IMG/VR virus record: IMGVR_UViG_3300007276_000130
Coordinates: 1 to 35,776 of that record
Length of the DNA: 35,776 nucleotides
From: a virus
Direction: 5' to 3' (one strand)
Of this stretch, positions 5,260 to 35,776 are shown one piece after another. Each line of letters begins with the position of its first letter. Position 1 is the first letter of the stretch. Both the position numbers and the translations under genes were made by a program. The notes beneath the pieces are model-generated. The model made no database searches, was not told the DNA's origin, and saw only the letters and a list, made by a program, of their open reading frames with translations.

Positions 5260-5636
5260 AGACCGCCGTAGACAAAGAACGCAAGAAGGAGCTAAAGCCT
5301 TACCTTGATGCGTTCTGGGAGTGGGGGTGTGTGATGGCACAACTGCTACCCGTAACAGACTGGGAGTATGTCAGCGCAGTCAAGCACCTACTGCGGGATG
5401 AAAAGGTGCTGATGAGTGGGCCGTGGTCTGGCGTGAACAAGTATGACGGTGACAAGGTACAACGTATTATTATGGAAGATGGTCATACACTACGTGTACC
5501 ACTGTTAGCTTTGTTTACACTACGATCTGATATAAGATACATTACTACGCAAGGAGATAAGAGAAAAGTGCGTAGACAATTCAATCAATGGGTCAACGTG
5601 GCCTGTGGTTTGATTACAACAACGAAAGAGGAATGA
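5256..5636 (+). CDS. Hypothetical protein, coupled to the VWA gene (126 aa)
   Basis: GTG at 5256 overlaps the stop of the VWA gene (ATGTGA), which suggests translational coupling; there is no strong ribosome binding site of its own. An ATG at 5334 is an alternative start, but the residues before it (KERKKELKPYLDAFWEWG) look like real protein. The product is basic, with an N-terminal helix and a central WSGVNKYDGDKVQRIIMEDG stretch likely to be beta. No family was recognised. Its place at the end of the ATPase/VWA run makes a role with that system possible. Confidence 0.6.
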   Translation: MKTAVDKERKKELKPYLDAFWEWGCVMAQLLPVTDWEYVSAVKHLLRDEKVLMSGPWSGVNKYDGDKVQRIIMEDGHTLRVPLLALFTLRSDIRYITTQGDKRKVRRQFNQWVNVACGLITTTKEE

Positions 5637-18994: not shown

Positions 18995-19038
18995 CCCCCT
19001 TACCGTAACCACCCCTTCTTGCGGTAAGGGGGTTTTTT
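18995..19038 (+). terminator. Strong Rho-independent terminator at the convergent junction
   Basis: A perfect 11-bp stem, CCCCCTTACCG (18995-19005) with CGGTAAGGGGG (19022-19032), has a 16-nt loop and is followed by six T (19033-19038). It ends the + strand replication operon. The stop of the converging - strand gene is at 19037-19039, so that gene ends at the foot of the hairpin. There is no T-run on the - strand side. Confidence 0.9.
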
Positions 19039-22000
19039 ACAAGAACCCTTCACCCGAATCCACCGTACGCTTCATGTATGGCGATAGCGTTGTACCGTTG
19101 TGCATCTCCGCAGAACGAGTCTCGTGCCCACGTATTGACCTATCAATAGTGTCACCTGTTATACGTTTCTGGCGATCTCGGCGCACGGCACTGGACTTGT
19201 TGAACTCTCGCATAGATCGCCGTGCATCACGCATACCTTCTCTGTCACCGAATCTCTTGGCAACGTAGTAACGTCTCAGCAGGTCACGGCGTTTAGCACT
19301 CGCAGCTATGTCTAGGCGTTTAGCTGTAGATGTCTCGTCCGCTTGTCTGGTGTAATCGACGGGCGGAAACCCTAGTAGCTGCGTAGCCAAATCACCGGCT
19401 GTGAGATCATCGTAGATAGGATCACCGCGCCGAGTCAGAATGCCCTCATCCCTCGGGTACCTGATAACAGCTTTATAAGCATTACGTACAGCGCCCGGCA
19501 TTAGGTCTTCTATACCACGCTCTATCTCGCCTTCACGTAGTTTGTCTATGCCATCTCTACCTCGTGAGTAGATGCTCCATGCAGGGCCACCAAACAGGTG
19601 AGCAATCTCTTCTTCTGGCGATGGATCACTGTTGAATCTGTCGGCTTCAAATAGCAGGTCGGTCAGCTTAACGCGCTGCGATACATCAACCCCAGTTATT
19701 TCAGACAGAGCGCCCTTGAATAGCACTTCACTGTCTAGGTACTGCCGTAGCATGGTGTCGGTGTCTTCTTCGTAGTCTTCTCTAAACATGTCAATAAGCA
19801 TGGAGACTGCACCGTACAACGGTAGACCCTGTACCCCAGCGAAGAACAGAGCAGATAAATGTACACCGGCAAGCTGTTTCAGAGCCTCATTACGTAGCTC
19901 TCTGCTCTTAGCGTCATTGCCCGGAAAAAAGTTCTCTATAGCTTGTCTACCAGACTTAAACATCGTGTAGTACATCTGTATGCCGTACGCTTTATACATC
20001 AGCGCAATACGACCTAAACTCTCACGGGCGTACCGTGGGCCAGTTTCTAGTGTGGCACCACCGTTGATTAGCTGCGTCTCACGTACAGCTTCTTCTGCGG
20101 CTTTCTTCTTGTCACCATCAAACTTCTTTAGTGCGAGTTTATACGCTGCCACCATCGTAACTTGACGATTCATTACTTCTGCTTCATGGAACATAAGAGC
20201 CGAAGCGTTTGTCACCGCGTCCATCTTAGACATCTTACGCCCCGCCTGACTCGTGCTGAGTGTGTCGGCAATGAACGACGAGTTAAGCTGCCCCCGCCTA
20301 GAAGCAAGCTCCATCAACGGTAGAAGGTCTTTCAATTCCTTTGTTTGCGCTGCATCGAGGTCTAGGTCTTTACGTACTTCGTAAGTGACTCGGCCATCTT
20401 TGTCGCGGGAGAACGTATAGTAGTTATCCAGCGATGGTAATGCCTTGTCTTTGAGGGCTTCTCTCGCTGCGTTGAGGTCACCTTTACGTAGCGCTTCTCT
20501 TACAGACCGTGGCGTTCTTGCGTCCCCGACTAAAGTAGCTATGTCCTTGTTCATTGGAGAACCCATAAACAACTTAGTAGCACCGCTTAGAGCGGTTCGT
20601 GTGGCTCCGAACCCATACTTACCTGCCAGCATCGGGTATGCGAACAACGGTATCTGCGACAAGTTTACCAGCGCAGACGAGGCGTTGAAGCCGATAGTCC
20701 ACATGAATGCCATACGGTTTGCGTTCTTAGCGAAACTGTCCAGTGGCGGATTGACGGCAAATCTAGCGCGGTCTTTTACCTCTTCGATTTCTGGGCTGTT
20801 CGCATCTGCCATTTTAGGGTTGGCTTCAAGCATCTCTTGTACGGCGTTGTCGATTAGCCGTGAGTTCTTAATGCGCTCTACCTGCCGTGCCAGATCAAAA
20901 GCCTTCGTACGTGCCGCTTCCACAGCATCTACATCATAACCTTCAGTGCCCTTACGTCGAAGCAGTGACTTAGCGAAAGAAGACTCTGGCAGGTACTCAA
21001 TAAACAAACGTGTTATCTGTTCCTGAACCTCTGGGTCTACTTTGTTCACCTTCATAATGCCCAGTATGCTGGAGACAAAAGAACCAGAGGGCGCGTCCTC
21101 GTAGGAGGCTTTGTCACTAGGGCTGAACGTCGATACTCCGTAACCTTCTGCTTCGTAGGCTTCCGCTGCCCTGAACCGTTCCGCAGCGTTCTCGTATGCA
21201 AACACGGCAGAGTCCGCGCCTTCCTTGGGGTTCTTCACAGACAGGAAGTACGTGCCGGTACGAGTCAGCGGGAAGTATGGCTCCAGCTTAGTCGCCTCTA
21301 ACATCTTAGCGTATAGACCGTTCTTGAGGTTGGTCTTCGCTTGTTCTGCTATGGGCAGTCCGTCAATACGATTTTGCAGCGTGTCATTAAGTTGGTCGTA
21401 CTGATCTTTATATAGCTTACGCAAAGCGGCGTAGTTCTTCCTACCCTCGGCACCAACCATCTTGCTGTTGTAGACCGCCCGTAGTTCTTTGTAGCGGTCT
21501 ATTTTTAGCTGCTTAGTGCCGTCTACGGGCTGGTTGCCGTACCGTTTTTGTGCTTGCTGTGGCGTTAGCTCTGGATCTACTTGGTCAACGGTACTGTCGT
21601 AGATCAAGTTATTCCACGCCTTAATCGTTTCTCCAGACTGTTTAGCAGCCCACTCTCGTATAGGTTGTAGGTTGTTTCTGACCGCTTGCTCTGCGGTAGT
21701 TAGGCCACCACGTTGGTTTTCTATAGCAGCGAAAACCTTATTAACACCGACTACACCTGCCCTTTCAAGCTCTACTTCGACGGCGTTGTTAGGTAAGAGA
21801 CCAAGTATTTTGCGTTTTAGTCCGGTGTTTTTCTGCCCTGCTGTGAGTGCACCGTACTCGCCAACTATTCTTTCTTTTGCACGCTCTATCGGCCCTTTAG
21901 GTAGGGCGTCCTTGAGTCCTTCCTCTACTCTACGTACGCCAGCAGGGTCGGTCATAGATGCTAAGAGAGGAGCACCACGGTGCTTGGCGGCAGGTGCCAG

Positions 22001-24826
22001 TATGTCTTCAATTAACTGTTGGGCTTCACGCTGTGCAGTACCACGTTCTTTGCCCAGCCCGAGGAAGTTAGATACCACGCGGATAAATTCTTGCCAGACA
22101 CTAAGCGGCCTACCGTCTGGGTTGATTCGAGCTAGCTCACCTTGGAAGGTGGGGTTAGTAAAGGCTTCAGCGACAAACTCTGCTACGTTCTTAGACCCAT
22201 AAGAGTTACGTAGGTACTCTTTGCTAGCCTCATGCAGCTTTATCAGCTTCTTAGTAGTCGGGTGTGACGGGTTCTTCAGAGTGCTAATCGTTGCAGCGTG
22301 CGCCATCTCGTGCAGTAGGACATACACATCTGTGTAGTCTTTATTCAGTACGATTGTGTTGTCTGCGGTTATGAACCGTCCGTCAACCTGTTTACCGTCT
22401 ACTGTACCCAACTGGCTTGGGGGCACGGTCATTATCTTGGTGTCACCAGTGAGTTTAGCCAGACGGCCAGCTACTCGCTTGATGAACTTATCGTCTGACT
22501 TGTTAGATAGCTCTAGTAAGGCTCGACGTAGTTCGTTGTTACGTACCGCACGTTTTACAGTGTCAGGCAGTGAAGCATCCAACACCTCGGTGTAGTCTCT
22601 TGGAGGTGCGTTGAGGACTTGTTCGGATGCGACACGCATAGCGTCTGCTTTACTGAGACCTTCTTCTTTTACGAGCCTGTCTCTTTCTGCACGACGTTCA
22701 GCTAAAAGACTTTGCTTGTCGGCAGTTTTTTCCTCTGGGGCACGTAGATCTACGTCCGCCGTAGGCTCTTCTACAGTAGGTTCTGCCGGGGCGGGTGTAG
22801 GTTCCTTCGTCAAAACCTCTTTTACGGTAGCTGGTGTGGCTGCGGCAGTGGCGGACATAGCCCGCTCTGCACGGCGTTGGGCGTCCACAGTCTCTTGAGG
22901 TATGACTTGCGTATCTACATCGGCAAGCTGTTCGTTGGCTTTTATACCTTCTTCAGTAACTTTCTGTAGCTTCTTCTCAGCACGAGCCAACTTACGTTGG
23001 TTAGCCTGCGTTGGTTTTACTGTTGCAGCTTCTTCGGCTTTAGCTACTTCAGTTCGGGCTGCGTTAGCCTTGGCTACTGCCGAAGTAACCTTTCGGGCTA
23101 GTGCACCACGCTGTTTTCTCGTTCCAGAAACAGGTCGTCCAACGCCTCTTCCAGCATCTCCCACTGGTTCTCCGACAAGTGCAGCAGGTTCCACGGTATC
23201 CGCACGTCTTGTAGGGACTCCCACGCCTCGTAGATCAGCTTCATCGCCTGTTCTACTTCTTGCTGCGACAGGTTCTCTTTTGCGCGGGGTAGGTAGATCA
23301 CGTTGCTCACTAGGTACTCCTTCTAGCAATCGGGTAACGCCACGTCGAACCTTTTGAGATTTTAGACGGTTAGCTTCGTTAGTTAGCTCAACCCGGACTT
23401 CTGGGTCATCTAAGTCTTTACCTATAACACGTCTGCGTATAGCAGCATTCGGCGCAAACCCAGCGGTAGTGAGGTCTTCTTCTGTGACAGGACGCGATTC
23501 GGGTGTTGGTTCTGCTTCTGGCGCTACTGCGGCTCCTTCTGCTACAGCAAGTTCAGTCGGAAATAGGTCAGGCTGTTCTCGTTGAGCAATCTCAGCACGT
23601 TCTCTACCTGTCCGCGCTTCGTCAGATACTGGCTCTTCAGTGATCTGTTGTTCTCTATCACGTAAGTTGGTTCGGTCTAAGGCTTCTTGTCTACCTAACA
23701 CATCGCCTTCAGGCGTTACAGCTAACGTCTCACCAGCAATAGTTTCACCTTCTGGTGCAGGTAGACCTCGCAACTGTGGCCCAACACGTTCTGGCTCTAG
23801 CCCCGGCAGTGATATTTGGTCAGGGCTTACTTCGGCTGTACGTTCTTCCTCAAACAGCCTGTCTCGTTCTTCCTGATCTATGTCGTCTATGACTTCATCT
23901 ATCTCAGGAGTACGCTCCTCTGCGTCGTCAAACAGTTCAAGTTGCCCTTCGGCTTCAGCTTCTTCAACAGCATCACCAATGGTCTTACCGGCTCTGCGTG
24001 GGGCGAACAGGTCAACAAGACCCTGTAAAATAGCACCGGCTCCAGCGCCTAATGCAGCTTCTTCTGCGGTACCGCCAAACGTCTCAGCAGCAGCGTTGTA
24101 TTCTTGCTCGTTAAGATTTTGCAGTATGTTGGATGCAGCTTCCTGTGCACCCTCAAACCCACCTGTCACACCCGCGCTGTAGATACGTTCGCCAATGGTT
24201 TCGACCTTCTCAGGCGGTATCTTGTCAACTAGCTTGTTTAGCGTAGGTAGATCAGCGAACTTAACTACTTTTGCAACGGGGAGTATGTCTAGCAAACCGA
24301 TTACTGTGCCCCGTACGGTGGCTTCACCACGTTTTTGCTCTGTAGTATCAGCGGCACGAGCACGCTCACTCGCCTCACCAGCACCGGCAGCACCGGCAGC
24401 TAACGCACCAAGACCCAAAGCCGCAGCACCGGGGGCACCAGCTATACCAGCGGCAACAGGTATAGAAGCAAGGCCAGCAACGGAACCAAGCGCGGAGCTT
24501 AGTTTGTAGGTAATAGATTCTGAGTCACCGCCTTCGGGACGGAAAGACTCCGCAATAGACTGAATACGCTCGCGTGCAGCTAGTTCGCTTTCTTCTTCCA
24601 GTGGCGCAGCGAGACCGAGTGCAGCCATCTCACCTACACCGACAACACCCGCACCGAATCCAGAGGTAATGTCCTCGAATATGCCGGTTTCTCGTGGTGC
24701 GCTGGTAGGGAGAGGGGTAGTACGCCCTACTAAAACACCCCTTAGCGCGTCTACAGCTTCTGTATCCCCAGCAGCTAGAGCGTTGCGGTACGCCCGATAA
24801 ACTTTCTCTCTTGGTACTACTGGCAT
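19037..24826 (-). CDS. Giant polyvalent-type virion protein with HEMAH metallopeptidase motif (1929 aa)
   Basis: Order of parts: helical start (YRAYRNALAAGDTEAVDALRG); Ala/Gly-rich, membrane-like segments about residues 100-155; an acidic, Pro-rich linker to about 780; a gluzincin-type motif HEMAH (839-843) with E883/E887 in EFVAEAF as third-ligand candidates; a long helical region; hydrophobic segments (FMWTIGFNASSALVNLSQIP and on; HLSALFFAGVQGLPLYGAVS); and a basic C terminus. This resembles phage large polyvalent or internal virion proteins that are packed in the head and injected with the DNA. The peptidase could act on head proteins or the host envelope. ATG at 24826 has only a weak ribosome binding site. 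Another gene is nested at 23098-23310. Confidence 0.88.
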   Translation of the reverse strand: MPVVPREKVYRAYRNALAAGDTEAVDALRGVLVGRTTPLPTSAPRETGIFEDITSGFGAGVVGVGEMAALGLAAPLEEESELAARERIQSIAESFRPEGGDSESITYKLSSALGSVAGLASIPVAAGIAGAPGAAALGLGALAAGAAGAGEASERARAADTTEQKRGEATVRGTVIGLLDILPVAKVVKFADLPTLNKLVDKIPPEKVETIGERIYSAGVTGGFEGAQEAASNILQNLNEQEYNAAAETFGGTAEEAALGAGAGAILQGLVDLFAPRRAGKTIGDAVEEAEAEGQLELFDDAEERTPEIDEVIDDIDQEERDRLFEEERTAEVSPDQISLPGLEPERVGPQLRGLPAPEGETIAGETLAVTPEGDVLGRQEALDRTNLRDREQQITEEPVSDEARTGRERAEIAQREQPDLFPTELAVAEGAAVAPEAEPTPESRPVTEEDLTTAGFAPNAAIRRRVIGKDLDDPEVRVELTNEANRLKSQKVRRGVTRLLEGVPSEQRDLPTPRKREPVAARSRTGDEADLRGVGVPTRRADTVEPAALVGEPVGDAGRGVGRPVSGTRKQRGALARKVTSAVAKANAARTEVAKAEEAATVKPTQANQRKLARAEKKLQKVTEEGIKANEQLADVDTQVIPQETVDAQRRAERAMSATAAATPATVKEVLTKEPTPAPAEPTVEEPTADVDLRAPEEKTADKQSLLAERRAERDRLVKEEGLSKADAMRVASEQVLNAPPRDYTEVLDASLPDTVKRAVRNNELRRALLELSNKSDDKFIKRVAGRLAKLTGDTKIMTVPPSQLGTVDGKQVDGRFITADNTIVLNKDYTDVYVLLHEMAHAATISTLKNPSHPTTKKLIKLHEASKEYLRNSYGSKNVAEFVAEAFTNPTFQGELARINPDGRPLSVWQEFIRVVSNFLGLGKERGTAQREAQQLIEDILAPAAKHRGAPLLASMTDPAGVRRVEEGLKDALPKGPIERAKERIVGEYGALTAGQKNTGLKRKILGLLPNNAVEVELERAGVVGVNKVFAAIENQRGGLTTAEQAVRNNLQPIREWAAKQSGETIKAWNNLIYDSTVDQVDPELTPQQAQKRYGNQPVDGTKQLKIDRYKELRAVYNSKMVGAEGRKNYAALRKLYKDQYDQLNDTLQNRIDGLPIAEQAKTNLKNGLYAKMLEATKLEPYFPLTRTGTYFLSVKNPKEGADSAVFAYENAAERFRAAEAYEAEGYGVSTFSPSDKASYEDAPSGSFVSSILGIMKVNKVDPEVQEQITRLFIEYLPESSFAKSLLRRKGTEGYDVDAVEAARTKAFDLARQVERIKNSRLIDNAVQEMLEANPKMADANSPEIEEVKDRARFAVNPPLDSFAKNANRMAFMWTIGFNASSALVNLSQIPLFAYPMLAGKYGFGATRTALSGATKLFMGSPMNKDIATLVGDARTPRSVREALRKGDLNAAREALKDKALPSLDNYYTFSRDKDGRVTYEVRKDLDLDAAQTKELKDLLPLMELASRRGQLNSSFIADTLSTSQAGRKMSKMDAVTNASALMFHEAEVMNRQVTMVAAYKLALKKFDGDKKKAAEEAVRETQLINGGATLETGPRYARESLGRIALMYKAYGIQMYYTMFKSGRQAIENFFPGNDAKSRELRNEALKQLAGVHLSALFFAGVQGLPLYGAVSMLIDMFREDYEEDTDTMLRQYLDSEVLFKGALSEITGVDVSQRVKLTDLLFEADRFNSDPSPEEEIAHLFGGPAWSIYSRGRDGIDKLREGEIERGIEDLMPGAVRNAYKAVIRYPRDEGILTRRGDPIYDDLTAGDLATQLLGFPPVDYTRQADETSTAKRLDIAASAKRRDLLRRYYVAKRFGDREGMRDARRSMREFNKSSAVRRDRQKRITGDTIDRSIRGHETRSAEMHNGTTLSPYMKRTVDSGEGFL
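23098..23310 (-). CDS. Nested gene in an alternative frame of the giant virion gene (70 aa)
   Basis: GTG at 23310 is preceded on the - strand by AGAAGGAG, six bases before the start, which is the best ribosome binding site in the - strand half. The product begins MSNVIYLPRAKENLSQQ, is acidic and amphipathic-helical (LSENQWEMLEEALDDLFLER) and reads as real protein. Over the same bases the host gene encodes a low-complexity linker (about residues 506-577, RKREPVAARSRTGDEADLRG and on). The codon phase differs by one. So this looks like overprinting, or a small gene kept inside a lengthened one. No family name is known to me. Confidence 0.78.
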   Translation of the reverse strand: MSNVIYLPRAKENLSQQEVEQAMKLIYEAWESLQDVRIPWNLLHLSENQWEMLEEALDDLFLERENSVVH

Positions 24827-27521: not shown

Positions 27522-28190
27522 TTATGCAGGTAGCATCTTCTGAGGTTTGATTTGCCTACCCTGTTTCGGGTTACCCGTGCGTTCTTTACGTACTCTGGTC
27601 ATCATTTGGTGTAGCTGATTTGCACCGGCATCGGAGTTACCGTTACCTAGATGGCTCACCACATCCGCAGGTATGACAAACTCCCCATCGCTAAGGCGTG
27701 CTTCTTGTCTACCATCAATAGTAGCTGGAATCTTATCAGCCATACCATCCGTAATACCACCTAAGTAGTACCCTTTGTTCATGCCAATAGCACCGCCAGC
27801 AGCCATTCCAGCTAGCCCTTGCGCTTGTGTTTGGGCTTTTTGCCGTGCTTGCTCTACTGTCATAGACTGACGTTCAGGACGGTCAGCGTACTGAACATCA
27901 CTGAAGTATCTTCTACCAGCAGATCCGGGCCTACGGTTAGGGTCTGCCTGCATAGGTACGCGCTCTCGCACGGCCTCATACTCTGGAATGCTTCCTTGGT
28001 AGCCAACTACAGGCGTTTTAGTGTCCATGATTCCAGTCTTAGTGGCTAAAGCTCCAAGCCCTGCGGTTCCAATAAGACTACCAACATCAGAACGAAAAAA
28101 ATCACCAACGCCCCCTAAAAACGTGTTTTCATTTCCAGTATCGGTAAAAGCACCGGACACGCCAGATGTAAGATCAGTCCACCAGCTCAT
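27522..28190 (-). CDS. Virion-type protein with SDGEFVIPADVV motif (222 aa)
   Basis: ATG at 28190 shares a base with the stop of the giant protein (TAATG). The N-terminal 50 residues are Gly-rich and weakly hydrophobic. The conserved core is YYLGGITDGMADKIPATIDG, then ARLSDGEFVIPADVVSHLG (about 141-182), and the end KQGRQIKPQKMLPA. This core is widespread in virion gene clusters of environmental phages, where its role is not defined. The context among structural genes supports a particle component. Confidence 0.78.
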   Translation of the reverse strand: MSWWTDLTSGVSGAFTDTGNENTFLGGVGDFFRSDVGSLIGTAGLGALATKTGIMDTKTPVVGYQGSIPEYEAVRERVPMQADPNRRPGSAGRRYFSDVQYADRPERQSMTVEQARQKAQTQAQGLAGMAAGGAIGMNKGYYLGGITDGMADKIPATIDGRQEARLSDGEFVIPADVVSHLGNGNSDAGANQLHQMMTRVRKERTGNPKQGRQIKPQKMLPA

Positions 28191-31100
28191 TAGCTTTCTC
28201 CAATAATCCGTAATAGTTCGTCGTTTGCATCAATTATACCTCCACGTTTACGTCCAAACGGCAGTCTAGGCCGTGTAGTCGGTTGAACTGGCCCTCGTTC
28301 GATTGTGCCGTACGGTGTAGGGAACATAGACGCTCTTTGTTGCGGCCCGAATATACTACCAAAATCATACAGATAGTCGATCTGTGCCAAGGGAGATTGA
28401 TCTACTGTAACTTGTTGTCCTGTTATGTCTGCGGCACCCATGATCTGGCCTAACAGATCCCTACGGCGAGCCTGCTCCCCTTCTTGTGCGATTTGAGTCT
28501 GTATTGCCTGCTGCGACTGCATTTGCTGCTGCATCTGCTGCTGTTGCTGTAGCTCTTGCTGCTGTTGCAGTTCCTGTTGCGTCTGAATCTGTTGCTGTTG
28601 TTGCTGCTCCATCTGACGCTGTAGCGCTTGTTGCGTCTGCTGCTGTGCGGCGTATAGGCCCGTAGGAGCGAACATACTGTCAAGGTCAAACAGTACATCT
28701 TGCCCTGTTCTAGCTTGTTGCAGGAGGTCTAGGTCAGCTTGGTCTACTACACCGTCACCTGTTACGTCATAGGCTAGCTGTTCTTGTGTGTACGTAGCAG
28801 GGTCGTTGATCGCTTCTTGCTGTGCGATAAGGTCAGCAACAAAGTCAATATCCGCATCAGTCACCTCAGAAGCAGGCTTACCTACAAGCTCCGCTACCGC
28901 TTCAATTTCGGCAGTCAGTGCACCCTCAGCGCCGCTAATTGCACGCAACAAATCAGCTTCAGTTTCACCGATTGCAGCGCGTAGGGACTCTTCAGACTCT
29001 CCGATACGTGTAAGTAAAGTTTCTTCGGTAACGCCAAGCTCGCTAGCAAGGTCGGATATAGAGGTACGCAGTGCCGTATCTCTGTCGGCACCTGCTTGTT
29101 CAGCTTCGTCAATCTTCGTCAGAAGGGTACGTGTTGTGGCGTCAACATCCCCAGACACATCTTCGATAGCTTTAGCTAATGCTTCATCCCGAGAAAGCCC
29201 TGCTGCCTCGTACTCAGCCATCTTGTCGAGGACGTTTGTTTCAAGGCCAGCTACTTCTCCAGATAGGCTTGTCTGTAAATCAGCTAACTCGCCCTTGAAG
29301 TCTTCTCGTACAGAAAGCTCAGAGTCCGCTATGGCATCTAGTAAGGTTTCTTTTGTTGTACCTAGATCACTAGCAAGCTCGTCAACAGTCTTGGCTAGTG
29401 CTTCATCACGGGACATCCCCGCTGCTTCGTATTCTGCTACTTTATTAAGTAGGGTCGTCTCAAGGTTAGCTACATCCCCAGACACGTCTTCGATAGCTTT
29501 AGTTAGTGCTTCATCACGAGACAACCCTGCTGCTTCGTATTCCGCTATCTTATCAAGGAGGTTTGTTTCAAGGCTGGCTACGTCACCAGATACATCCGCA
29601 ACAGCTCTGGATAGTGCTTCATCACGCGACAACCCTGCTGCTTCGTATTCAGCTACTTTGTTAAGTAGATTTGTCTCAAGGCCAGCTACGTCTCCAGATA
29701 CATCTTCGATAGCTAAAGCTAATGCCTCATCACGGGAAAGCCCCGCTGCTTCGTATTCGGCTATCTTCTCAAGAAGGTTTGTTTCGAGGTTAGCTACATC
29801 CCCAGATAAGCTCGCCTGTAAGTTAGCTAACTCGGTTCCAAAATCTTCTCGTATGGCAAGTTCAGAACCCGCTATCCTGTCTAACAGGCTCTGCTCTGTT
29901 GTACCTAACTCTGCGGATACATCTGCAACGGACTGCGATAGTGCCTCATCCCGAGAAAGTCCCGCCGCCTCGTACCCCGCTATCTTCTCAAGAAGGTTTG
30001 CTTCAAGGTTAGCTACGTCTCCAGCTAGACTTGCCTGTAAATTGTCTATCTCATCCTTGAACTCTTCCCGTATGGCAGTGTCGGAATTCGCTATTCTGTC
30101 TAACAGGTTCTGCTCTGTTGTACCTAGTTCTCCAGATACATCTGCAATAGACCGCGCTAACGCTTCATCGCGGGAAAGTCCTGCACCCTCATACTCGGCC
30201 ATCTTCTCAAGGAGGCTTGTCTCAAGGTTAGATACATCTTCAGATAGAGTTGTTCGTAAGGCAGATAACTCGTTTGTGAAGTCTTCCCGTATGGCGAGAT
30301 CAGAGTCCGTTATCCTATCTAGCAGGTTCTGTTCTGTTGTACCTAACTCTCCAGATACATCTTCGATGGCCTTAGCTAGTGCTTCATCACGAGAGAGTCC
30401 TGCGTTCTCATACTCAGCCATCTTTCCAAGGAGGTTCGCCTCGATGTTGGACATACCTTCGGATAGGTCTGCCTGCAAACTTTCTAGTTCACCCTTGAAG
30501 TCTTCTCGTATGGCAAGATCGGAGTCCGTTATTCTGTCTAACAGGTTTTGCTCTGTTGTACCTAGTTCTCCAGATACGTCCTCAATAGCTTTGGCTAACG
30601 CTTCATCACGAGACAGCCCTGCGTTCTCGTACTCGGCCATTTTCCCAAGGAGGTTCGCCTCAAGGTTGGACATTTCCTCAGATAGATTTGTCTTTAGGGT
30701 AGTCAACTCATTTCTGAAGTCTTCCCGTACGGCAAGTGCAGAGTCCTCTACAACGTCTAACAGGTTTTGCTCTGTTGTGCCTAGCTCTCCCGACACAGCT
30801 TCGATAGCTTGGGCCAGTGCTTCGTCCCGAGAGAGTCCTGCTGCTTCGTATTCAGCTACTCTATCAAGGATGCTTGCCTCAAGATTCGACATATCTCCGA
30901 GTAAACTTGCCTTTAGGCCCGTCAGCTCACCCTTGAAGTCTTCTCGTATAGCAAGTTCGGAATTTGCTATGGTGATTAACAGGTTTTCTTTTGTTGTACC
31001 GAGATCACCGGCAAGGTCGTCAATAGCCTGCGATAATGCCTCATCCCGAGAAAGCCCTGCATTTTCATACTCATTTACTTTATCGAGTATGTTTGCCTCA

Positions 31101-34100
31101 AGATTCGACATGTCCTCGGACAAACTTGTCTCTAGGGTAGTTAGCTCATCCCTGAAGTCTTCTCGTATGGCAAGCTCAGAGTCCGCTATAGTGTCCAGCA
31201 GGTTTTCTTCTGTTGTACCTAGCTCTGCGGATACATCTGCAATGGACTGTGCTAACGCTTCATCACGAGAAAGCCCTGTTGCCTCATACTCTGCTATCTT
31301 CTCAAGAAGGTTTGTCTCAAGGCTGGACATATCCCCAACCAAACTTGCCTTCAGATCGACTAACTCGTTCCTGAAATCCTCTCGTATGGTAAGTTCAGAG
31401 TTCGCTATAACGTCTATTAGGGATTCTTTTGTCGTACCTAGATCACCAGCAAGCTCATCAATAGCCTGCGCTAACGCTTCATCACGAGAAAGCCCTGCTG
31501 CTTCGTATTCAGCCACTTTAGCGAGAATGCTTGTCTCAAGGTTCGACATATCCCCAAGCAAACTTGTCTTCAGATTAGCTAATTCGTCTTTGAAGTCTTC
31601 TCGTATGGTGAGGTTAGAGTTTGTTATAACGTCTAACAGCTCTGCCTTTGTTGTACCTAGCTCTGTGGACACCTCTTCGATGGCCCTAGCCAGTGCTTCA
31701 TCCCGAGAAAGCCCTTCTGCTTGGTACTGATCCATCTTGCCAAGGAAACTTGTTTCGAGGGTAAGCATGTCTTGAGACACATCTTCAATAGCTTTGGCTA
31801 GTGCTTCATCCCGAGAAAGCCCTTCCGCTTGGTACTGAGCCATCTTGCCAAGGATACTTGTCTCAAGATTAGCCATATCCTCAGATACAATCGTCTCTAG
31901 GACAGCTAGTTCGTCCCTAAAGTCTGTTCGTAAGGAAGACTCAGAGTCCCCTATGATGTCTAGCAGAGTTTGTGTTGTTGTGCCCAATTGACCTGCAAGC
32001 TCGCTAATAGCCTGCGCCAATGCTTCATCACGAGTCTTACCCTCTCCTTGTAGCTGATCTATACGGTCATTAAGCTGCTGCTCAGACTCTGTTAGCTGGT
32101 CGGACAACGCAGCTATTTGATCGTCTACAGGATCGACTACAGGATCGACTACAGGATCGACTACAGGATCGACTACAGGATCGACTACAGGATCGACTAC
32201 AGGATCGACTACAGGATCGACTACAGGATCAACTACAGGATCGACTACAGGATCGACTACAGGATCGTCTACAGGATCTGGCGTTGGGTTAAGTAAGCTA
32301 CCGTCATCGTCAATGCCAGAATCCGTACGGGCAGTAGAGTCTGGGTTGATTGATTCAATCTGGTCTAGCAGACTGTCTAATTGCAAAGGCGTTGTGTTTG
32401 GATTACCAAGCAGCCCGTCTAGCTGAAGCATTAACATGTTTTCAGAGTATTCAGTCACATTGTCTGAAGCGTACTTTTCTGACTTACCTACAAACTCAGC
32501 CAAGTCTTCTTGTGTAGGTGTATACCCAATGTCAGTAAAGTAATCCCTAGCTTCTCGGTTAGTGACATACATCGGGTCGAAAACATCAGAACGTAAGCTG
32601 TTAAGCGCAGCCTCGGCTTGCCCAGACTCGGTTTGGCGTACGTACTGAGCGACCTGCTCGTTAGTTAATGTCAGACCTTCAAGCGCTGCGGCATCTATGG
32701 CTTCTTGTGCGTCGATATAGCTGCGGTCTACTAAGTCTGCAACGCTAGCAGCTAACCTATCTTCAGCGATGTCGCCGGTAAAACCAAGTATGTCCGCTTC
32801 AGTGGGGGCGTAATCAGGGTTTTCAATTTGGAACGTATCTTTGGATTCGGTATATGTGGTGTAATCCGCGTCAAACGCATCATTTAATAGGGTGGTTTGT
32901 AGACCGCCGTATTCATCACTGGCTATACCAAATTCTGCTAAGGCCGCTTTAGCCTGTGCATCATTAATCAGCCCCCTCTTAGCGCCTTCTATTGTGGCAT
33001 TTATACCTGCATGAGTAGAGCGTACAGCCCCAGCCAAAGCATCTCGTGCGCCATCAACACCTAACAAAGCCGATGTAACTGCGGTGCCGCTAATAAGACC
33101 TCCCGCACCGGCAGAAGCTATTGCAGCGCCCCAGTCGCGGTTTGGATCTGTAGAAGTTAGAGTAGCCTCTAACGCTGTCCCAGTTAGTGCTTCTTCTCCG
33201 TATTCAAAAATCCCTTCTTTACCCGCAGTTTTTGCAGCCCGCAGCCCTGTAACGAGAGCGTCTCCAGCATTGACACGATCACCTAGCTCTTTAGCCAAAG
33301 CCTCCATTTTTGGGTTTAAGGTGGTTTTTTTACCCCCGAGTAAGAGTTTGTCTAGTGCCTCGCCACCCAAACCAAAAGATGCAAGCGACAGCACCGTAGC
33401 GGTACCACCGCTAATCATTGCAGCATCATGGGCAAACTTGTGGATCTCATCCATTTGCCCCGGAAATAGACCATTCTGGTCAACTAAATTGCCGATAGGT
33501 ATACCGGCGGATTGCATAAGAGCTACTGTGGCTTCGTTGTTTTCTCGTAACTGCTTTAGTTTCGCATCAAACGCCTCGTCATAAGCCCCGTCAGCGCTAC
33601 CCCCAAAAGCCTCGCTAGCGTCGGTAGCAGCGGCGGTAGTCAAACCAGCCCTCGTACCAATCTGAGTTGCTGCAACTTTAGCAGAAGCGGATACCGCGCC
33701 TTTCCCTGCAATTTTTGCTGCGGATAACGCAGCGCCCTTCGCTATTACTCCTGCACCACCACCAACAAGTAAAGGGCCGATTTCTTGGAAAAGCTCTACC
33801 CCTGCAAGTTCAGCCAGCATGATAGTTGGGTCGTCAGCAAGTGCGTCTGTCCATGCTTGAGTAGTGCCCCAGAACCCTTCTGCTTCTTGTATTGTCCCCC
33901 ACATGTCTTTAACGCGGGCTTGGTATCCTTCGGTATTCGCAGAATCGCCAAGTTCAAGAAGTTTATTTACGTATTGACCAAGTTCTAAGTCATCTGGGCG
34001 TGCCCCAAATAGGTAAGTAAGCCCCAACATGGCTTTGGTAAAACCCGCACCCGCACGGATCATGTTTGCAGTGGTGTTAATTGCACCCGCTTCCAAATTA

Positions 34101-35776
34101 GCGGCTAGCTCACGGGCTTTTGTCTCGTCCATGCCAGAAGCAAGCATCGCGGGTAAGATGTTTTCAGCCACATTATTAGCGGCTTCTACAGCGTCTTCAG
34201 CTATTTCGTAAACGCTAATGCCGTCAGTCGCGCTTTCTACGCCGTTCTCTTTGACGTATTCAGCGCTTTCTTTATTGCCTGTAGCAGAGTCGGCACGACC
34301 TAACTTGTTTGTGTACGCTTCTGGGTCACTGTTACGTAACTTTGCAAGTTCATCGAGATCCAACGCAGATACAGCATCTACAAGTCTGCCAGTAAGCTCC
34401 ACACCAGACTCTTCTAGCAACCTTAAATGGCTATAACCTTCACCACGCAGCTCTACATAGGCGTTTATAGCATCTAAGCGGAAATCTGCGGGAGAGGCGT
34501 TACCGCCAGCTCTGCGAGCCATAGACTCAGCTATTTGATCTATTGCTAACCCAATAGACGCTGCTCTAGCTTCTGGAGTCACTCCGGGCAAAAATTGTTC
34601 CGTGGTGTATTTCGTACCTTCAATATCTAATTCAATTACGCCATCAGCAACAAAAGTATCTGCTACAGAGACATTGGGGTCTGCAATTCGAGAATCTGCT
34701 TCAAAATTAAGCGGTGTAGTGGGGGCTTCTTCTCCAAAAGACTGTCCAAGTAAAGTGTTAAGTGTGCTTCGTGGGTCTAACCTGTCCGCTAAAGAAACCC
34801 CCGCCGCGTCAAGATATTTTTGGAACTGCGGGGCATCTATAATTTCATTAGCAAGATCAAGTTTTTGTTCTTGCGGTATGTCTCTAGTGGTACGAAAAAT
34901 ATTAGCCCACAAAGAAGGTTTTTCCTTAAACTTAAGTAACAACCCATTGACATCTTCAAATATAGGAAGTCCATCTTCATCGACCAACCCACGGGGTTTG
35001 TAGCCTCCTAATACTTCAGACATTTCTGCGGCTCTTGCCGCTTCCCTATTAAAGGCAGCAATACCGTACTTACGTATATATTCATCTTCGCCTAGAAGAT
35101 CAGAAAACTCCTCACGTTCTAAGTCTTGTTGTGCTCTAGTTAGCCCTGCTATACCTTCAGAACCTTCAAACTGATAATCAATACCCCCCGCTGCGGCAGT
35201 TATATCCGCTTGACTTGGTGAGAACAGACCACCTATAGCTTCACCAGTGCCGCGTAACACCTCGCCCATTTTCTCGAAGAAGGTGTCTTTGTTTATGCCT
35301 GCTATACCGCCACCAGACAGGACGTACTGCCCTAAGCCTATAGATAAAGCATCTTCAAGCTCGATACCTTGCGTTAAGGCTACTTGGGTTCTGACCAAAC
35401 CATTCACTAACAAGTCTTGGTTTACACCTGCTCTGTCAAGCAGTTCGGGGGTAAGTCCTACCTTGTTGAGAGCAGTGGTGGTTAGATCAGGGCCAAAAGC
35501 TGCAAGCACCCCCGCACCAAGATTACCGCTTACAGCACCAGAACCTACTTGGGCTGCTGCGTATAAAAGTTTTGCCGTGTTGTATTCTGTTAGCGCTTGT
35601 GCGGCTAAGGATGCTGCGCCGGGGCCAGCAGCGGCAAGAGTTTCATAAGCTGCTTTAGCATTACCCAGCTTTTGTGCGGCGGTTGATCCGACAAACGACA
35701 GCCCTGCACTTTTGAGTACGTCTTCAAAATCTCCACCAGATATAACGGTTTGCCCTGCGGATACTGCTGCGGTAGC
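28190..35776 (-). CDS. Giant repeat virion protein (at least 2528 aa, 5' end outside the window)
   Basis: The frame is open to the right edge; an internal GTG at 35509 is not needed as a start because 89 further codons before it read as protein. Order: Ala/Gly-rich, partly hydrophobic N-terminal 1.1 kaa with glycine-zipper segments; a 13-unit DPVV linker (32125-32280); 17 coiled-coil repeats with the [LM]SRDEAL anchor (29073-32040); an EF-hand/dockerin-like loop DVTGDGVVDQAD (about 28751-28771); a Gln-rich helix; and a C-terminal YDFGSIFGPQQRASMFPTPYG. It has no known enzyme motif. It is probably a fibre-like or internal virion protein whose length is set by the repeat number. Confidence 0.85.
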   Translation of the reverse strand, partial: ATAAVSAGQTVISGGDFEDVLKSAGLSFVGSTAAQKLGNAKAAYETLAAAGPGAASLAAQALTEYNTAKLLYAAAQVGSGAVSGNLGAGVLAAFGPDLTTTALNKVGLTPELLDRAGVNQDLLVNGLVRTQVALTQGIELEDALSIGLGQYVLSGGGIAGINKDTFFEKMGEVLRGTGEAIGGLFSPSQADITAAAGGIDYQFEGSEGIAGLTRAQQDLEREEFSDLLGEDEYIRKYGIAAFNREAARAAEMSEVLGGYKPRGLVDEDGLPIFEDVNGLLLKFKEKPSLWANIFRTTRDIPQEQKLDLANEIIDAPQFQKYLDAAGVSLADRLDPRSTLNTLLGQSFGEEAPTTPLNFEADSRIADPNVSVADTFVADGVIELDIEGTKYTTEQFLPGVTPEARAASIGLAIDQIAESMARRAGGNASPADFRLDAINAYVELRGEGYSHLRLLEESGVELTGRLVDAVSALDLDELAKLRNSDPEAYTNKLGRADSATGNKESAEYVKENGVESATDGISVYEIAEDAVEAANNVAENILPAMLASGMDETKARELAANLEAGAINTTANMIRAGAGFTKAMLGLTYLFGARPDDLELGQYVNKLLELGDSANTEGYQARVKDMWGTIQEAEGFWGTTQAWTDALADDPTIMLAELAGVELFQEIGPLLVGGGAGVIAKGAALSAAKIAGKGAVSASAKVAATQIGTRAGLTTAAATDASEAFGGSADGAYDEAFDAKLKQLRENNEATVALMQSAGIPIGNLVDQNGLFPGQMDEIHKFAHDAAMISGGTATVLSLASFGLGGEALDKLLLGGKKTTLNPKMEALAKELGDRVNAGDALVTGLRAAKTAGKEGIFEYGEEALTGTALEATLTSTDPNRDWGAAIASAGAGGLISGTAVTSALLGVDGARDALAGAVRSTHAGINATIEGAKRGLINDAQAKAALAEFGIASDEYGGLQTTLLNDAFDADYTTYTESKDTFQIENPDYAPTEADILGFTGDIAEDRLAASVADLVDRSYIDAQEAIDAAALEGLTLTNEQVAQYVRQTESGQAEAALNSLRSDVFDPMYVTNREARDYFTDIGYTPTQEDLAEFVGKSEKYASDNVTEYSENMLMLQLDGLLGNPNTTPLQLDSLLDQIESINPDSTARTDSGIDDDGSLLNPTPDPVDDPVVDPVVDPVVDPVVDPVVDPVVDPVVDPVVDPVVDPVVDPVVDPVDDQIAALSDQLTESEQQLNDRIDQLQGEGKTRDEALAQAISELAGQLGTTTQTLLDIIGDSESSLRTDFRDELAVLETIVSEDMANLETSILGKMAQYQAEGLSRDEALAKAIEDVSQDMLTLETSFLGKMDQYQAEGLSRDEALARAIEEVSTELGTTKAELLDVITNSNLTIREDFKDELANLKTSLLGDMSNLETSILAKVAEYEAAGLSRDEALAQAIDELAGDLGTTKESLIDVIANSELTIREDFRNELVDLKASLVGDMSSLETNLLEKIAEYEATGLSRDEALAQSIADVSAELGTTEENLLDTIADSELAIREDFRDELTTLETSLSEDMSNLEANILDKVNEYENAGLSRDEALSQAIDDLAGDLGTTKENLLITIANSELAIREDFKGELTGLKASLLGDMSNLEASILDRVAEYEAAGLSRDEALAQAIEAVSGELGTTEQNLLDVVEDSALAVREDFRNELTTLKTNLSEEMSNLEANLLGKMAEYENAGLSRDEALAKAIEDVSGELGTTEQNLLDRITDSDLAIREDFKGELESLQADLSEGMSNIEANLLGKMAEYENAGLSRDEALAKAIEDVSGELGTTEQNLLDRITDSDLAIREDFTNELSALRTTLSEDVSNLETSLLEKMAEYEGAGLSRDEALARSIADVSGELGTTEQNLLDRIANSDTAIREEFKDEIDNLQASLAGDVANLEANLLEKIAGYEAAGLSRDEALSQSVADVSAELGTTEQSLLDRIAGSELAIREDFGTELANLQASLSGDVANLETNLLEKIAEYEAAGLSRDEALALAIEDVSGDVAGLETNLLNKVAEYEAAGLSRDEALSRAVADVSGDVASLETNLLDKIAEYEAAGLSRDEALTKAIEDVSGDVANLETTLLNKVAEYEAAGMSRDEALAKTVDELASDLGTTKETLLDAIADSELSVREDFKGELADLQTSLSGEVAGLETNVLDKMAEYEAAGLSRDEALAKAIEDVSGDVDATTRTLLTKIDEAEQAGADRDTALRTSISDLASELGVTEETLLTRIGESEESLRAAIGETEADLLRAISGAEGALTAEIEAVAELVGKPASEVTDADIDFVADLIAQQEAINDPATYTQEQLAYDVTGDGVVDQADLDLLQQARTGQDVLFDLDSMFAPTGLYAAQQQTQQALQRQMEQQQQQQIQTQQELQQQQELQQQQQMQQQMQSQQAIQTQIAQEGEQARRRDLLGQIMGAADITGQQVTVDQSPLAQIDYLYDFGSIFGPQQRASMFPTPYGTIERGPVQPTTRPRLPFGRKRGGIIDANDELLRIIGES
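28485..28646 (-). repeat. Poly-glutamine-rich codon tract
   Basis: About 50 codons, mostly CAG and CAA, coding for Gln with scattered Met, Leu and Glu, between the EF-hand-like loop and the C-terminal domain of the giant protein. It is predicted as a helix or coiled coil. Such tracts can change length by slippage. Confidence 0.8.
29073..32040 (-). repeat. Coiled-coil repeat array with two unit lengths (219 and 108 bp)
   Basis: The codons of the [LM]SRDEAL anchor recur 17 times, at 29073, 29181, 29400, 29508, 29616, 29724, then every 219 bp to 31695, then 31803 and 32022. Of 16 intervals, eleven are exactly 219 bp (73 aa) and five exactly 108 bp (36 aa). The short unit lacks a 37-aa block (ELGTTEQNLLDRI to about LSG). 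Both lengths keep the frame. The first (29073) and last (32022) anchors are diverged, as usual at array ends. Confidence 0.9.
32125..32280 (-). repeat. Thirteen-copy 12-bp tandem repeat (DPVV linker)
   Basis: CTACAGGATCGA repeats at 32125, 32137 and every 12 bp to 32269, thirteen copies, almost all identical; one copy has A instead of G (32231) and the outer ones end in T. It encodes DPVV units. Near identity at silent positions means recent expansion, so copy number may vary between related viruses. It probably is a stiff, extended linker. Confidence 0.92.

Follow-up and report, generated by a model that had tools for sequence, protein, structure and literature searches.

The 35,776-nt stretch of viral DNA that we analysed (IMG/VR record IMGVR_UViG_3300007276_000130, positions 1 to 35,776; hereafter "the window") almost certainly contains, wholly within a giant gene, a second, genuine protein-coding gene of 70 codons, as judged from the sequence, from homologous contigs, from a reversal in the codon positions at which substitutions fall, and from AlphaFold2 models. 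The nested gene occupies positions 23098-23310 of the minus strand, starts with GTG and ends with a TAG stop codon. Taken as a whole, the data are very probably best explained by a genuine out-of-frame gene that lies in a linker of the giant protein, is maintained by selection, has been exchanged between host genes, and has been lost at least once.

The giant host gene and its nested frame

The host gene (19037-24826, minus strand) encodes a 1929-aa giant protein of the PLxRFG, or "DarB-like", phage family. Its match to the family profiles of these giants is significant (phrog_11358, E=2e-53; phrog_10089, DarB-like, E=3e-53), the Pfam domain LPD39 scores above the cut-off, and tblastn of the protein returns PLxRFG/DarB-like phage proteins. 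From these relatives, the host product is presumed to be an internal virion protein. Its HExxH metallopeptidase-type motif, HEMAH, is located at 22298-22312 (minus strand), approximately 263 codons downstream of the nested gene, which itself sits in the linker separating the N-terminal module from the HExxH region. The host linker also contains QLELF, QISLPGL, and QPDLF (residues ~296, 338, and 419; window positions ~23941, 23815, and 23572, minus strand), which we take to resemble sliding-clamp-binding pentapeptides; QPDLF is also found in contigs L045, L134, and L141. Elsewhere in the window, a 2439-aa ORF (28190-35509, minus strand) consists largely of ~36-aa repeats (108-nt period, 29383-31910) and includes a 12-nt repeat in 13 copies (32119-32278) that encodes VVDP. 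The 980-aa ORF that runs antisense to it (28788-31730, plus strand) is probably a by-product of the repeats.

The nested ORF is on the same strand as the host ORF, in a different frame, and entirely internal to it. A preliminary description of the window had reported a GTG start, one frame off inside the giant gene, with AGAAGGAG six bases upstream, and the coordinates and sequence confirm this arrangement: the Shine-Dalgarno-like AGAAGGAG (23317-23324, minus strand) is followed by the 6-nt spacer TACCTA and then by GTG. A search for an internal promoter and an internal terminator found neither. The product had been described as acidic, and the host as encoding only a linker over the same bases. 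Both statements hold, as the nested product has a pI of 4.4, and the host peptide across the overlap, which begins SEQRDLPTPRKREPVAARSRTGDEADLRGVGV, is a basic linker with a pI of 11.0.

In a single genome such a frame is weak evidence for a gene, and the bare ORF is unremarkable, since the window has 112 ORFs of at least 60 aa and the nested frame stays open in ~1.75% of host-synonymous codon shuffles. In the reciprocal, nested-synonymous shuffles, the host frame is open in a median of 47% when codons follow family usage and of 4% when they are drawn uniformly. It is the conservation of the ORF, rather than its mere presence, that exceeds chance on the comparisons below.

Conservation, translation start and selection

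Homologues of the nested protein, with 31-100% identity, occur in 84 uncultivated virus contigs. This number is our own tally from the search tables; the 70-aa protein as query retrieved 26 virus contigs, and profile searches widened the set, taking identity down to 31%. In all 84 contigs, the small ORF is nested in the identical relative frame inside a homologous giant ORF (complete or truncated at the end of the contig), and it lies upstream of the host HExxH motif wherever the contig covers that motif. The nested frame is open in 56 of the 56 distinct variants tested, with the host ORF spanning the overlap in every one of them; in L193 a break downstream of the nested gene divides the host reading frame into two ORFs. 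Three contigs have the nested frame open for 115-130 codons (L066, 7487-7855; L075, 6765-7109; L038, 989-1378) and share additional sequence ahead of the usual start, MLLVQNKIRFLPR.MFQKWK.KYPKNAQ, which may represent a longer form of the protein or a by-product of constraint on the host.

The preliminary description had also raised the prospect of stand-alone homologues, and none came to light. There is no stand-alone copy among the 84 contigs, nor a copy elsewhere in records lacking the nested gene (the rest of 40 records; part of this search had no positive control). Likewise, no nested homologue was found in 50,697 phage records by DNA and tblastn searches that included distant members and a consensus, or in GTDB genomes with two profiles at the sensitivity used, and all of the evidence therefore comes from metagenomic contigs. 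Full-length hosts without the nested family do exist (L059, L060, L061, L064, L065, L067, L073, and L078). Four further host loci (L055, L058, L062, and L068) were left out of this group, as they are possibly cut before the nested site.

The proteins of the family are 59-77 aa long. Eight residues do not vary across 44 members (L14, E20, A22, P39, L42, L45, W50, and L60), and Q16, E18, L57, and the C-terminal H70 are nearly invariant. AlphaFold2 predicts a helix-loop-helix for the window's nested protein (pLDDT 73) and the same fold for a divergent member (pLDDT 79), for which BFVD and PDB gave no fold match. There was likewise no significant PHROG, Pfam, or PDB family. The best scores of single members (PHROG, 9e-4; Pfam, 8e-5) were below the curated cut-off and not family-wide, and were taken as noise.

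A ribosome-binding site had been expected to be conserved across relatives, and it is: a Shine-Dalgarno match (4 nt or longer) precedes the nested start in 55 of the 56 variants, compared to 24% of random same-frame control positions, although the former figure is inflated by our having chosen the best start for each member. The start contexts themselves vary, with GTG after AGAAGGAG in the window and ATG after GAGGT, AAGGAG, or GGAGG in other members. Several members have a stop codon directly before the nested start (e.g., TAG-ATG in L022 and L095), a junction that argues for independent initiation. Many have a stop in the nested frame 0-5 codons upstream of the start, which argues against entry into the frame by frameshifting.

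Strong evidence also comes from the codon positions at which substitutions fall. Host positions 1, 2, and 3 correspond to nested positions 3, 1, and 2, respectively, and under normal selection on the host, changes are expected mostly in host position 3. In 23 independent, non-overlapping pairs, the substitutions at host positions 1/2/3 number 6314/4666/11547 elsewhere in the host genes and 361/206/77 inside the overlap, so that the position-3 share falls from ~0.5 outside to ~0.1 exactly from the nested start to the nested stop. In ten-codon bins (19 of the 23 pairs), this share is 0.04-0.18 between start and stop, 0.35-0.36 just past the nested stop, and 0.38-0.67 over most of the flanks (400 codons upstream and 250 downstream). 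Because the drop coincides exactly with the borders of the ORF, it is the nested frame that carries the constraint. This had been surmised beforehand, with a comparison of substitutions in both frames named as the check, and the outcome is strongly in favour of the nested gene. As read from these substitutions, purifying selection is shown to act mainly on the nested frame, and the pattern supports the view that the host frame mostly needs only to stay open and to serve as a flexible linker.

Loss of the nested gene and its exchange between host genes

A broken frame in relatives, which the preliminary description held to speak against the gene, was encountered in a single lineage. In L045 (~5280-5535), the nested copy has decayed and the host frame is open: the ribosome-binding region and first codons are still recognisable, the start codon has been lost, stops have appeared, and GATACA-type short repeats replace the remainder. 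Sister lineages retain the gene intact, and the C-terminal region of L045 groups with nested-bearing hosts. These remnants show, for the lineage represented by this contig, that the nested gene was lost at least once without the host frame being broken, and hence that there are lineages in which the giant gene can do without the nested protein.

Among close pairs, nested and host proteins have diverged to a similar extent (median identity 91% versus 88.5%, p=0.24). A very different relationship is seen in more distant comparisons. Nested proteins of the L105 type share 74% identity with the window's and 84% with that of L093, whereas the corresponding host C-terminal parts are 28-31% identical (~30% for the window's host) and, between the L105-type and window hosts, no similarity was detected in the N-terminal module. 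By blastn, similarity between the L105-type genes and those of the window and L093 runs from 3-6 nt past the nested start to near the stop. AU tests on the 70 nested protein columns were of low power and not significant (p ~0.16-0.17), and were replaced by tests on the DNA of the last 60 nested codons; these rejected trees that keep the window's host clade together, or two other host groups together (p=0.0016 and 0.0021). The tree tests and the discordance in identity thus show, for the sequences compared, that recombination has transferred the nested gene among divergent versions of its host, a feature that the preliminary description did not mention.

The hosts, too, appear to be composite. 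Those of L101, L103, and L104 have an N-terminal module that is 75-80% identical to the window's and a C-terminal part that is 30-31% identical, and from this disagreement we conclude that the giant proteins are mosaic, the joints lying in the linker. At shorter distance, the hosts of the window and L086/L088 are 92-94% identical overall but 63% in the overlap, where the nested proteins are 77% identical; this local peak of divergence is consistent with allele replacement. A further, tentative idea, which we consider more doubtful than probable, is that the nested gene constitutes a self-standing module, one that moves among unrelated linkers of giant virion proteins and always lands in the same frame, and that its conserved DNA acts as a homology island for the reshuffling of N- and C-terminal modules. 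If true, overprinting would not only hide a gene but also drive the recombination of its host.

Alternative explanations and known overprinted genes

Three alternatives would dispense with a second, separately translated protein. The abundance of ORFs of similar length in the window might suggest a chance open frame, but all of the comparative evidence is contrary and the substitution pattern refutes it, which leaves the idea with a negligible probability. Ribosomal frameshifting, common in phages, could join the nested frame to the host frame upstream of it, on the same strand, to give a hybrid protein. Yet in many members the frame is closed shortly before the start, conservation and the depletion of position-3 changes begin at the start codon, and the Shine-Dalgarno match is conserved, all of which makes frameshifting very improbable. 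Alternatively, the constraint might act on a DNA or RNA signal (packaging, recombination, or regulatory), and the sharp limitation of DNA identity to the nested stretch between otherwise divergent hosts is what such a signal would produce; however, changes accumulate at the nested wobble position, as in DNA coding for amino acids, and over the 84 contigs the protein can still be recognised at 31-40% identity, with start and stop conserved. We consider such a signal exceedingly unlikely.

As for a genuine nested gene, translation would most likely begin within the host mRNA, at the gene's own Shine-Dalgarno and GTG, and the protein would be expressed late, together with the virion genes, and may bind a bacterial or phage protein through its helical hairpin. 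We give an even chance to the product being an autonomous small late protein, encoded within a disordered host linker, and not an obligate partner of the giant, the autonomous role being favoured by the fact that a near-identical nested protein works in very different giants. A role as dedicated partner to the giant virion protein (as a chaperone, a packaging adaptor, or an inhibitor of the HExxH domain) seems to us possible but rather unlikely. Strict confinement to one gene family, with no stand-alone copy in the 84 contigs, is some argument for a functional link with the host protein, as is the invariable location upstream of the HExxH region where covered, and co-translation off a single mRNA would match the timing of the two products. 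Against this, the nested protein retains 74-84% identity in hosts that are ~30% identical C-terminally, L105-type hosts have no detected similarity to the window's N-terminal module, and L045 dropped the nested gene and kept its host. Moreover, full-length hosts without the gene still have the HExxH motif, so that the notion of a nested gene tracking the HExxH domain fails. The remaining alternative, a hidden selfish homing element, has its model in ShiLan, where an out-of-frame HNH endonuclease has been inserted into a phage methylase gene (PMC11855218). The resemblance lies in a protein coded out of frame in a phage gene (from a GTG in the window), a host frame that remains open, and signs of horizontal movement across divergent host genes, and ShiLan is, by analogy, the closest precedent for a mobile gene carried out of frame within another phage gene. 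However, the nested proteins are much smaller (59-77 aa), have a single near-invariant C-terminal histidine and no His-Asn-His pattern, and match no endonuclease, Pfam family, or fold. In addition, the authors reported no Shine-Dalgarno for the ShiLan endonuclease (PMC11855218), whereas the nested gene has a clear one. Lacking the HNH motif and having a Shine-Dalgarno, the nested gene falls outside the ShiLan class. It is also found in nearly all members of a host clade, in contrast to the sporadic ShiLan insertion. The closest host without the gene (L045) has a decayed copy and not an empty site, and the linkers are too divergent for collinear comparison. In our estimation, a homing element is very improbable.

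Nested out-of-frame genes are present in phiX174 and T7. As in those phages, a small gene lies inside a larger one in another frame, with its own start and with both frames open. Here, in contrast, the hosts of the family are very divergent and have exchanged the nested gene, the overlapped part of the host is a linker, and the phages are uncultivated. Overprinted virus genes have been reviewed (PMC8227390, PMC7017920). By its open frame, selection, initiation signal, and open host frame, the nested gene would fit the definition of an overprinted virus gene. What is new relative to known overprinting is, on the present comparisons, the horizontal exchange of a nested gene among divergent host genes. 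Other PLxRFG or "DarB-like antirestriction" giants (e.g., those of Klebsiella phages ZX1 and SopranoGao, Vibrio phage douglas 12A4, and Pseudomonas phage F116) have a C-terminal part homologous to the host (PHROG 11358/10089), but they differ in that, within the sensitivity of our profile, the nested family was found in none of nine phages of this type.

Annotation pipelines usually suppress ORFs that lie wholly within another gene, which is why a family present in dozens of virus contigs, on several deep branches of the giant-protein family, has no significant PHROG, Pfam, or structure entry. The nested gene is one of the clearer cases of overprinting in phages in which selection can be read directly from codon positions, and its exchange among divergent hosts indicates that a nested gene can act as an independent module. 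The linkers of giant virion proteins may conceal more such genes.
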